Below are positions 12,870 through 18,311 of a DNA stretch of 61,244 nt, piece by piece (the stretch's first letter is position 1; every line of letters starts with the position of its first letter). The position numbers and the translations under genes were made by a program. The notes beneath the pieces were generated by a model, which searched no databases, was not told where the DNA came from, and saw only the letters and a program-made list of their open reading frames with translations. The stretch is from Gemmatimonadota bacterium (GTDB taxonomy: Bacteria > Gemmatimonadota > Gemmatimonadetes > Longimicrobiales > Gaopeijiaceae): assembly GCA_022560615.1 (NCBI GenBank), contig JADFSR010000023.1:1-61244 (forward strand). Direction: 5' to 3'.

Positions 12870-14238
12870 TCAAGCGGCTTTTCGATAGTAATGGCTGAGG
12901 ATTCCTCCCAGCCGTTCCTGTCGAACGACAGGCCCTAGGGCGGGTTCTGGAACCCCCTCGATCGGCCGGTTGCCGAGGCCTTGGTGGCACCGCTCCAACT
13001 GATAATGCTCCAGGTAGTTCGCAATCGCTCGCCGTAGGTGCTGCTCACCGAGCATGACCATCCGGTCGAGGCACTCCGACTTGATCGAGAGGACGAAGCG
13101 CTCCGCGTAGGCATTCAGATTCGGACTCTTCGCAGGCAATCGCACATGCGCCACGCCCGCGTAGCGGAGGATTTCGTGGAAGCCTCGTGTGTAAAGCGGG
13201 TCCCGGTCATGGATGAGAAACCGCTTTCCTCTCAAGAAGCCGCTTAGCAGGTCGCTGAAAAAGTACAGTGGGCCGCGCACATGGTGCTTGCGCGCGTTCA
13301 GGCAAGGAACGACGAGGAGTCGTAGCAGGGCTACGGCGACGAGGAGAGACGATGGATCAACCGCGCAACCGCCATGTGCCCAACACCAAACGTGACAATA
13401 TCTTACGTGTTTGTGGGTTGCGGTGGCACGGCCCCATCTCCGTCGTTGGAGCTCCTATCCGTAGCGACGGCTATGGCGTCGTCGCTCCGCCTAGGATATG
13501 AGGCCGTGGCACCGCAACGCGGCCCGCTGTACTTCTTCAGCGACCTGCTAGGTCGTCGATCAGGTTCCGGGCCACCTGTCGCATCCACAGCCCGTTGGGA
13601 GCCGGCGCGATTCCGGCGATCTCCACGCGCCTGCTCGACAGATCGATGACGAAGAACACCAGGTACCGCACCAGCCCCACCCTGGTCCAGACCTCGACCG
13701 TGAAGAAGTCGGCCGCAGCGATCGCTTCCCAATGCGCCTTCAGGAACTTCGACCATGGCATGTGCGGCAGCCGCTCCGGTGCGGGCCCGATCCCACACTC
13801 CTTCAGAATCCGCCGTACTGTTGATCGCGAGACCCGATGTCCCAGCTTCGACAGCTCCCCGACGATTCGCGTACAACCCCAGCTCTCGTTCTCACTCGCC
13901 ATGCGCACCGTGAGTGTGCGGATCTCGGTCGCTATGTGAGGTCGGCCCGGGCCTCGCACTGCGCTTCCGTCGTACTTCCTCGCGATCAGCTCCCGATGCC
14001 AACGCAGAATCGTGTCCGGTGTCACGATCGGTTCGAATTCTCTCAGCACGCGGCGTCCGAGCGCATGGCCCTTCGCGGCCAGTCTCCTCCGCTGGTCATC
14101 GTTGAAGCGCAGGCGCTTGTTGCCGTGCAGCTCGCGAAGCACTCGGTTCTCTTCCTTCAGGTATGCATTGACGGCTCGGTGCTGCTCGTTCACCCAGCCC
14201 GCGAGCATCATCACGAACATCTGCAAAGGCGTGTTCAA
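12870..14238 (-). pseudogene. DDE (rve integrase-core) transposase split by a MITE
   Basis: The 5' part runs from a TTG at 14238 (GAGGG five bases upstream) to about 13551 and the 3' part from 13244 to 12870. Removing the 302-bp element at 13247-13548 plus one TA restores an uninterrupted 354-residue frame through RNLIDDL-SGFLRGKRF. The protein has an N-terminal helix-turn-helix region ([19 protein letters not shown]) and an integrase core with the three acidic residues in AADFFTV, IHDRDPLY and NAYAERFV, ending LSHYYRKAA. It resembles IS3/IS481-type transposases. Its own terminal repeats were not resolved. Confidence 0.85.
13247..13548. mobile_element. 302-bp MITE with 31-bp terminal inverted repeats and TA duplication
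   Basis: The left end (GCAGGTCGCTGAAAAAGTAC at 13247, continuing to 13277) and the right end (13518-13548) are inverted repeats with 29 of 31 matches. The element is flanked by TA at 13245-13246 and 13549-13550, the target duplication of Tc1/mariner/IS630-type transposition. Excising it repairs the host transposase frame exactly. Inside are a perfect CGTAGC-AGG-GCTACG hairpin (13321-13335) and a 17-bp inverted repeat with one mismatch (13417-13433 with 13502-13518). There is no transposase inside, so it must move in trans. Confidence 0.88.
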
Positions 14239-16352: not shown

Positions 16353-16493
16353 ATGATTCTCGGTGCGCTCCAGTTTAGAGCCTTTATGGCACACATCACG
16401 GGGCATGCCCCCTCCGGGTCCTCAGATGATGGCTATGTCGAGGCTCTCGCGGACCTGCTGACCCACGGGCTCGCGCCGGAGGAAGGCCAGTGA
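16353..16493 (+). pseudogene. C-terminal tail of a TetR-type regulator
   Basis: The frame from ATG 16353 reads MILGALQFRAFMAHITG, then SSDDGYVEALADLLTHGLAP and stops at 16493. This is the usual end of TetR-family regulators that control efflux operons; the DNA-binding half is missing. Its stop overlaps the GTG of the TolC gene (GTGA), which supports an original regulator-outer-membrane-factor operon. 16024-16352 shows no convincing gene. Confidence 0.5.
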
Positions 16494-17375
16494 GATTCCT
16501 AGCGCCTCGCGCCATCCTCCTCCTGTCCCTCGCCGCTCCAGCCGGGACCGTTGCACAGGATCGACCGTGGTGGGAGGCTTTGGGCGACGACACGCTGGGA
16601 GCGTTGATCGAAGAGGCGCTTTTGATGAGCCCTGACCTCGCCGCCGCTGTCCAGCGCATCGCTCAGGCTGAGGCTTCTTCCATCCGTTTCCGAGCCCCGC
16701 TCTTGCCCACGCTGAGCATCGACGCCCTGGGATCGGTGGCTCCCCTGAGTGGGCTGGGGTTTCAGTTTGGCGGATTGCCGATCGGTGGTGACCCCACCGG
16801 TGCCCGGCCGTCCCTCTTCTACACGGGGTCCGGCAGGTTCACGGCGCGATACAACCTCACGTCCTTGGGCGCGGATTATCGCCTCTTGGAGTCGAGTCGT
16901 TTCCGGGCCCTTGTGAGCCGCGGAGACGGCGACGCCGTCGCGGTGGCCCTGGCCACTCAGGTGGCCGAGGCATACTTGGACGCGGTGTCCGCCCGAGAGC
17001 AGCGGGCGATCATCGAGCAGCAGGTTACGGCTAGCCAACAGCTCGCCGATGTCACGCTCCTCCGCTATCAAAGCGGCCAGGCGACCGCACTCGACGTGCT
17101 CCAGCAGCGGCAGCAACTTGCCACCGCGAAGGCCAATCTTCCGCTGACGCAGGCGTCCCTGCGGGTTGCGCTCGAGCGACTCCACGCCCTTCTCGCTCGG
17201 GATGCAGAAGCGTCCCTGCCAGAGGTCCCAGAGCGGCTGCCCACCGTGCCCGTCGCCGACCCAACCATCCGGTCCGGTGCGCCAGTGGCCACGTCTTCGA
17301 TTTTCGATCGTCCCGATGTCCGGGGAGCCGATGCCAGGCTCCAGGCATCGCTTCGCGATGCCTCGGGCGCACGAT
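16490..17375 (+). pseudogene. TolC-family outer-membrane efflux protein, 3' end lost
   Basis: The GTG start overlaps the preceding stop. A signal peptide ends at TVAQ and is followed by about 265 residues of TolC/OprM-type sequence: LIEEALLMSPDLAAAVQRIA, the helical LATQVAEAYLDAVSAREQ, TLLRYQSGQATALDVLQQRQ and FDRPDVRGADARLQAS. After about 17345 the homology ends at a perfect hairpin (AGGCATCGC-TTC-GCGATGCCT, 17343-17363), and IS256-type sequence begins. About half of a normal TolC (second helical hairpin and end) is missing and not found downstream, so insertion was followed by deletion. The frame stays open to 18025 only by chance. Confidence 0.8.
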
Positions 17376-17402
17376 GGAGCGGCAATGAGGAGGCCAGGTG
17401 CC

Positions 17403-18311
17403 ATGGCGGACAGGATGCTGGAGATCCTGATGGCAGGCGTGAGCACGCGGAAGTACGGTGCGGTGATCGGCGAAATGGCCGACACGGTGGGCGTGAGCAA
17501 GTCGGCGGTGAGCCGCGAGACGATCGAAGCGTCGGAGCGCGTGCTGAAGGAGTTGATGGAGAGACGCCTCGACGCGTGGGATCTGTTGGTGATCTACCTC
17601 GACGGCATCCAATTCGGTGCGCACCATGTACTTGCGGCCGTGGGCGTGGACACGGACGGCAAGAAGCATGTGCTGGGGATGCGGCAGGGAGCGAGCGAGA
17701 ACACCGAGGTGACCACCACCCTGCTCCAGGACCTGGTCGAGCGTGGCCTGGATCCGGAGCGCCGGCGACTGTTCGTGATCGATGGCTCGAGGGCACTGAG
17801 GAAAGCCATCACTCAGGTGTTTGGCGCGGAGCACTTGGTCCAGAGATGCAGGAATCACAAGCTCAGGAATGTCATCGGGCACCTGCCGAAGGGCGAGCAC
17901 CCACAGGTGAAGGCCGCGATCCGTGCGGCGTGGAAGCTCGACGCGAAGGACGGCACCCAGAAGCTCGAACAGCTGGCGCGGTGGCTCGAACGCGATCAGC
18001 CGTCGGTGGCGGCAAGCCTCCGTGAGGGTCTGCATGAGATGTTCACGATCAACCGGCTTGGATTACCACCTCGGCTGAGGAAGTGCCTCGGCACCACGAA
18101 TGTCATCGACAGCACCCACTCAGGCGTGAGGCAGAAGACCCGCAGGGTCACGAACTGGAAGAATGGCGCGATGGCCTTGAGATGGGCAGCAGCCTCCTTC
18201 GTCGAGACCGAGAAGAGCTACCGACGTATCGTCGGCTTCGATCAACTCCGGATGCTCAAAGCTCATCTCGATGATCGCGAGCCGGTTGCCGAAATGAAGA
18301 TGGCAGGTTAA
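17403..18311 (+). pseudogene. IS256-family transposase, N-terminally truncated
   Basis: About 302 residues can be read from an ATG at 17403 with GAGGAGG upstream. The sequence matches the catalytic half of IS256 (mutator-type) transposases: LVIYLDGIQFG with the first Asp, KHVLGMRQGASEN, LFVIDGSRALRKAI with the second Asp, VQRCRNHKLRNV, NVIDSTHSGVR and a late Glu in FVETEKSYRRI. Full proteins are near 400 residues; the N-terminal third is missing and the remainder is fused into TolC. It could still be translated but is unlikely to be a working transposase. No terminal inverted repeats were identified. Confidence 0.82.

Follow-up and report, generated by a model that had tools for sequence, protein, structure and literature searches.

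A hairpin-cored MITE within a Gemmatimonadota transposase gene, probably one copy of an old family with exchangeable IS5/IS1182-like ends

The window analysed here, 61,244 nucleotides of contig JADFSR010000023.1 (assembly GCA_022560615.1), contains a 302-bp element at 13247-13548 that splits a transposase gene. The gene is read on the minus strand, and its two halves give matches to HTH domains and to an integrase core of IS3/IS481 type. The element ends in inverted repeats of 31 bp with 29 of 31 positions matching, a figure of the initial annotation that was reproduced when the arms were re-measured; with the adjoining TA included, the arms (13245-13277 and 13518-13550) are 33 nt long and 94% complementary. 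The TA reported on either side was likewise confirmed. The parts of the locus are as follows.

12870-13244, minus strand: 3' part of the split transposase gene (integrase core)
13245-13246, no strand: left TA of the target-site duplication
13247-13263, plus strand: left outer end, type D, GCAGGTCGCTGAAAAAG
13264-13276, plus strand: inner part of the left inverted repeat, TACAG followed by TGGGCCGC, the same as in A-ended copies
13277-13379, plus strand: core domain 1, a local hairpin domain with covariation
13380-13416, plus strand: variable linker joining domains 1 and 2
13417-13518, plus strand: core domain 2, a hairpin domain that probably arose as an inverted copy of domain 1 and then diverged
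13519-13531, minus strand: inner part of the right inverted repeat
13532-13548, minus strand: right outer end, type D, GCAGGTCGCTGAAGAAG on the minus strand
13549-13550, no strand: right TA of the target-site duplication
13551-14238, minus strand: 5' part of the split IS3/IS481-like transposase gene

Elsewhere in the window, the region 16490-18311 holds the reading frame of an outer-membrane efflux protein (TolC-like) that passes into a transposase of the Mutator type (IS256-like, 17166-18311), and an efflux gene therefore seems to be interrupted by an IS.

When the flanks are joined with one TA removed, they form an open frame of 356 codons (354 from a TTG start), and relatives carry four intact homologues, with 78-88% nucleotide identity, to which this empty-site junction aligns without gaps. 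Insertion with duplication of the TA is therefore established, and the proposal that excision of the element plus one TA repairs the transposase agrees with the junction in relatives that carry the gene without the element. This copy cannot have a 4-bp duplication of the CTAG type: with the empty site CTTAGG, TTAG would have to stand on both sides, but the right flank reads CTAG. It is practically certain that the element is a MITE inserted into another transposase, as the initial annotation had it: the element is short, has terminal inverted repeats, and has a TA duplication proved by the empty site. The description of the insertion as young holds only in part: apart from the insertion, the split gene is still open, but no identical copy turned up, and the closest one has an identity of 93%.

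The element appears to be non-coding. A Pfam search of its open reading frames gave no match, a frame open from end to end was seen in at most 5 of 29 copies, and copy lengths differ out of frame; a coding core was rejected on these grounds. The folding energy of the window element as RNA lies at z = -12.7 relative to shuffled sequences.

A search with the 302-bp sequence found about 40 core-related places in the window's own genome, the multiple copies expected of a MITE, and matches in 21 of 59 relatives. The best matches in the own genome cover only about position 10 to 293 of the query because the outermost bases differ between copies: complete copies are flanked by TA, yet they begin with different ends. 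The target of the copies is CTAG in 45 of 72 cases and YTAR in most of the others. A model of domain 1 matched 37 of the 298 Gemmatimonadota genomes searched; the carriers belong mostly to the same family and also to other families of the order and class. The named carriers of D-ended loci are Gemmatimonadota, including Longimicrobiales. The element is thus not an isolated insertion but a rare-end copy of a large family that spans the bacterial class.

The 78 complete core-bearing copies fall into five end classes, namely A (GAAGGCTGTTGAAGAAG), B (GAAGGGTGATCGGAAAG), C (GCAGCCCGTGGTAGAAG), D (GCAGGTCGCTGAARAAG) and E (GGGAGCCTCTGCACAAG). Allowing up to two mismatches, the own genome contains 37 A, 63 B and 62 C patterns, some of the last by chance (a reversed control gave 14). 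The D pattern occurs five times, as the two ends of the window copy and three chance-looking places. D and E ends are also found in other genera and in another family of the order. The two ends of a copy are closely alike: the outer 17 bp are identical in 46 of the 78 copies, and the mean mismatch is 0.55 of 17. A scan of end pairs gave 120 pairs of the same type and four mixed matches, three of which are internal look-alikes; the remaining one is a real hybrid (L081) with an E end on the left and a C end on the right, in which domain 2 is mostly absent.

All end types contain an AAG that marks the border between the outer end and the inner sequence. In the window copy, D stands outside this border and TACAG inside it, as in A copies; in L290, A stands outside and is followed inside by GGGG, which is also found in D copies from other genera. 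Since discrete types recur across genera, they are unlikely to have arisen by gradual drift of one end.

Several unusual loci were seen in the course of this comparison. At L019 1477-1480, a C-ended and a B-ended copy lie back to back with a single TA common to both. Four loci (L082, L089, L104 and L107) are mini-palindromes of about 30 bp, in which a C-type end is directly followed by the last bases of its partner end and then by TA; they are probably remnants from which the entire core was deleted. In one Acidobacteria gp6 MAG, the QHWF records (L303-L382) contain dozens of elements of 129-132 bp that have one D-type end, one related end, GCAGGCTGCTGAAAAAC, and a different interior.

Comparison of the cores indicates that the end type has changed repeatedly on one core. 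On a core tree of 71 copies, 15 changes of end type are required, or 19 after removal of the outer 24 bp, compared with a minimum of 4 and with about 40 in shuffles. Pairs of near-identical cores have different ends: an A-ended and a B-ended copy in one relative have cores that are 96.5% identical, a C-ended and an E-ended copy in the own genome 94.8%, and the window copy and an A-ended copy of the own genome 92.9%. Apart from its D ends, the window copy has a core of the kind found in A-ended copies. Note that metagenome assemblies can join repeats wrongly, which bears on such differently ended pairs.

These data can also be read as several separate MITE families, each of which captured the same core once, without continuing exchange. 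The clustering of end types beyond random expectation (15-19 changes against about 40) is in keeping with such captures; however, the changes are well above the minimum of 4, several of them fall on well supported branches, and near-identical cores within one genome bear different ends. We regard separate families as improbable, and repeated end-type change on one core as well supported. Recombination or gene conversion near the AAG border would be the simplest explanation of the exchange. Alternatively, each lineage could have undergone a single exchange, after which every combination spread horizontally.

The elements that best match the D, A, B and C ends are full-length, IS5/IS1182-like and flanked by TA on both sides. 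For D, these are IS5 elements of about 1.36 kb in Alphaproteobacteria (L363, L328, L333, L344 and L377; L328 and L377 have long open transposase frames), which match 16-17 of the 17 end bases and were located by searching with the D end itself. The partners of A (L182, whose frame is apparently broken, and L181) and of B (L189) match only 13-15 of 17, and that of C (L174) lies in the window's own genome. The transposases of L377 and L181 score above the IS5_4 cut-off and that of L189 above the IS1182 cut-off; that of L174 is below the cut-offs, with IS1182 as its best match, and has DUF772 and DDE_Tnp_1, the domain pair that characterizes the IS5/IS1182 group. A full transposon sharing the ends, suggested as something to look for, was therefore found for D in other bacteria and not in the own genome, where partners of A and B were not identified either; no partner was found for E. 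Like the window family, these ISs (L363, L328, L377, L181, L182, L189 and L174) have a TA-flanked, CTAG/YTAR-like target in addition to the common outer 17 bp or so, and unlike it they encode a transposase. No hairpin core was seen beside the ends of the autonomous elements. Taken together, the shared ends and the TA duplication at CTAG-like targets make mobilisation by IS5/IS1182 transposases likely.

Duplication of TA is typical of IS630, and the initial annotation had described the element as a recent non-autonomous insertion of the Tc1/mariner/IS630 type. The TA duplication agrees with this assignment, and the own genome contains one IS630 gene with TA-flanked ends, which share 11 of 17 bases with type A on one side. 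However, this single detectable IS630 copy has different ends from the window element, matching D at 8 of 17 bases on both sides, compared with an agreement of IS5-type elements that reaches an exact match. Nor is the TA exclusive to IS630: elements of the IS427 group of IS5 are listed with 2-bp duplications, so that the TA does not point to IS630, and certain other IS5 and IS1182 members have 4-bp repeats (PMC3281130). We consider the IS630 affiliation very improbable.

The core was analysed using an alignment of 29 diverse copies. It consists of two domains of local helices, in which 97.7% of the cells are paired, and 21 of the 41 pairs have changes on both sides; none of the shuffles was equally good. 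When the pairing partners are slid, pairing falls to 30-49%, although this control favours the core structure because the structure was derived from the same alignment. In several genomes, the domain-1 model also matches the opposite strand of domain 2, a relationship that direct alignment of the two domains supports in some copies only. The element therefore probably goes back to an ancient event in which a unit of end plus hairpin was duplicated in inverted orientation. An initial domain-2 model that included the outer stem was dropped because its alignment slipped at the end.

Two further features of the core vary among copies. In the domain-1 stem (alignment columns about 30-76, window about 13306-13350), single Watson-Crick pairs are separated by GA/GA steps, the pattern of tandem sheared G-A pairs; in the lineage of L151 and L302, much of this stretch turns into ordinary pairs. 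Copies of 340-430 bp (L009, L015, L019, L020, L021, L026, L041, L097, L113 and L123) have additional short hairpins with the pattern RCCCRYGC-loop-GCRYGGGT, which occupy a small number of fixed positions in the core and give the impression of little hairpin modules that were inserted or became larger.

Such a core might itself be what is selected, that is, an undescribed structured RNA of two hairpin domains and about 240 nt, selfish or used by the host, for which successive borrowed IS5/IS1182 ends would merely be the vehicle of a long-lasting spread through the class. Covariation is strong away from the ends, many positions are invariant, the core is conserved across a bacterial class, the strand that is plus in the window folds better in 25 of 29 copies, and copies lie mostly outside coding-like frames (5 of 30 in the own genome against 38 of 60 control positions, p = 4e-5, using a crude codon model). 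However, the preference for one strand is modest, template switching that keeps hairpin DNA alike would also produce covariation, and insertions in genes are often removed by selection. Rfam 15 covariance models gave no match at E values up to 1 over ten loci, so that no known RNA family is indicated; this counts against an RNA function and agrees with the earlier suggestion that the element may be a new family. We consider a selected RNA function rather unlikely on these sequence comparisons; it is compatible with mobilisation by IS5/IS1182 transposases and does not exclude it.

A search of the available literature did not find a description of the core family or of such end swapping, which does not prove their absence. 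The closest systems resemble the family in part. RUP of Streptococcus pneumoniae, a MITE of IS630-Spn1, is also short and non-coding, has TA at its ends, is thought to be mobilised in trans, and lies within transposase genes, in its case those of several IS families (PMC2229807); RUP is, however, bound to one IS630 element, whereas the ends of the window family match IS5/IS1182 and come in several types on a common core, and its core is longer than that of RUP and has two domains. TIMEs, miniature mosaic-forming derivatives of Tn3, are likewise non-autonomous and exchange modules, but they keep the Tn3 ends and vary the cargo, whereas the window family keeps the core and varies the ends (PMC4133298). 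CIR of Caulobacter, compared by description rather than by sequence, shares two long stem-loop arms with a linker and the lack of a protein; unlike the element, it has neither long outer inverted repeats nor known partner transposons (PMC2229807).

The reading that we consider probable, judging from sequence relationships, is that of a non-coding MITE moved in trans by IS5/IS1182 transposases and belonging to one old Gemmatimonadota family, which would be defined by its conserved core of two hairpin domains. Family members, if mobile, would be recognised by DDE transposases of the IS5/IS1182 superfamily through the outer 17 bp or so of the inverted ends and inserted at YTAR sites, mostly CTAG, with duplication of TA. 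The ends would act as an exchangeable module, in that related cores bear types A-E, most of which match different transposons, so that any transposase present could move the family. Hairpin-templated correction may keep the two ends of a copy alike, or selection for mobility may do so, and an old family may in this way have been re-mobilised repeatedly.

The usual view of MITEs is that they depend on a single parent transposon and disappear when it does. A MITE family that swaps both of its ends to suit other transposases would explain how such elements can outlive their parent transposons, and its differently ended copies form a natural series of constructs for asking which transposase moves which end. 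In addition, the covarying core raises the question of a function for MITE RNA or hairpin DNA.
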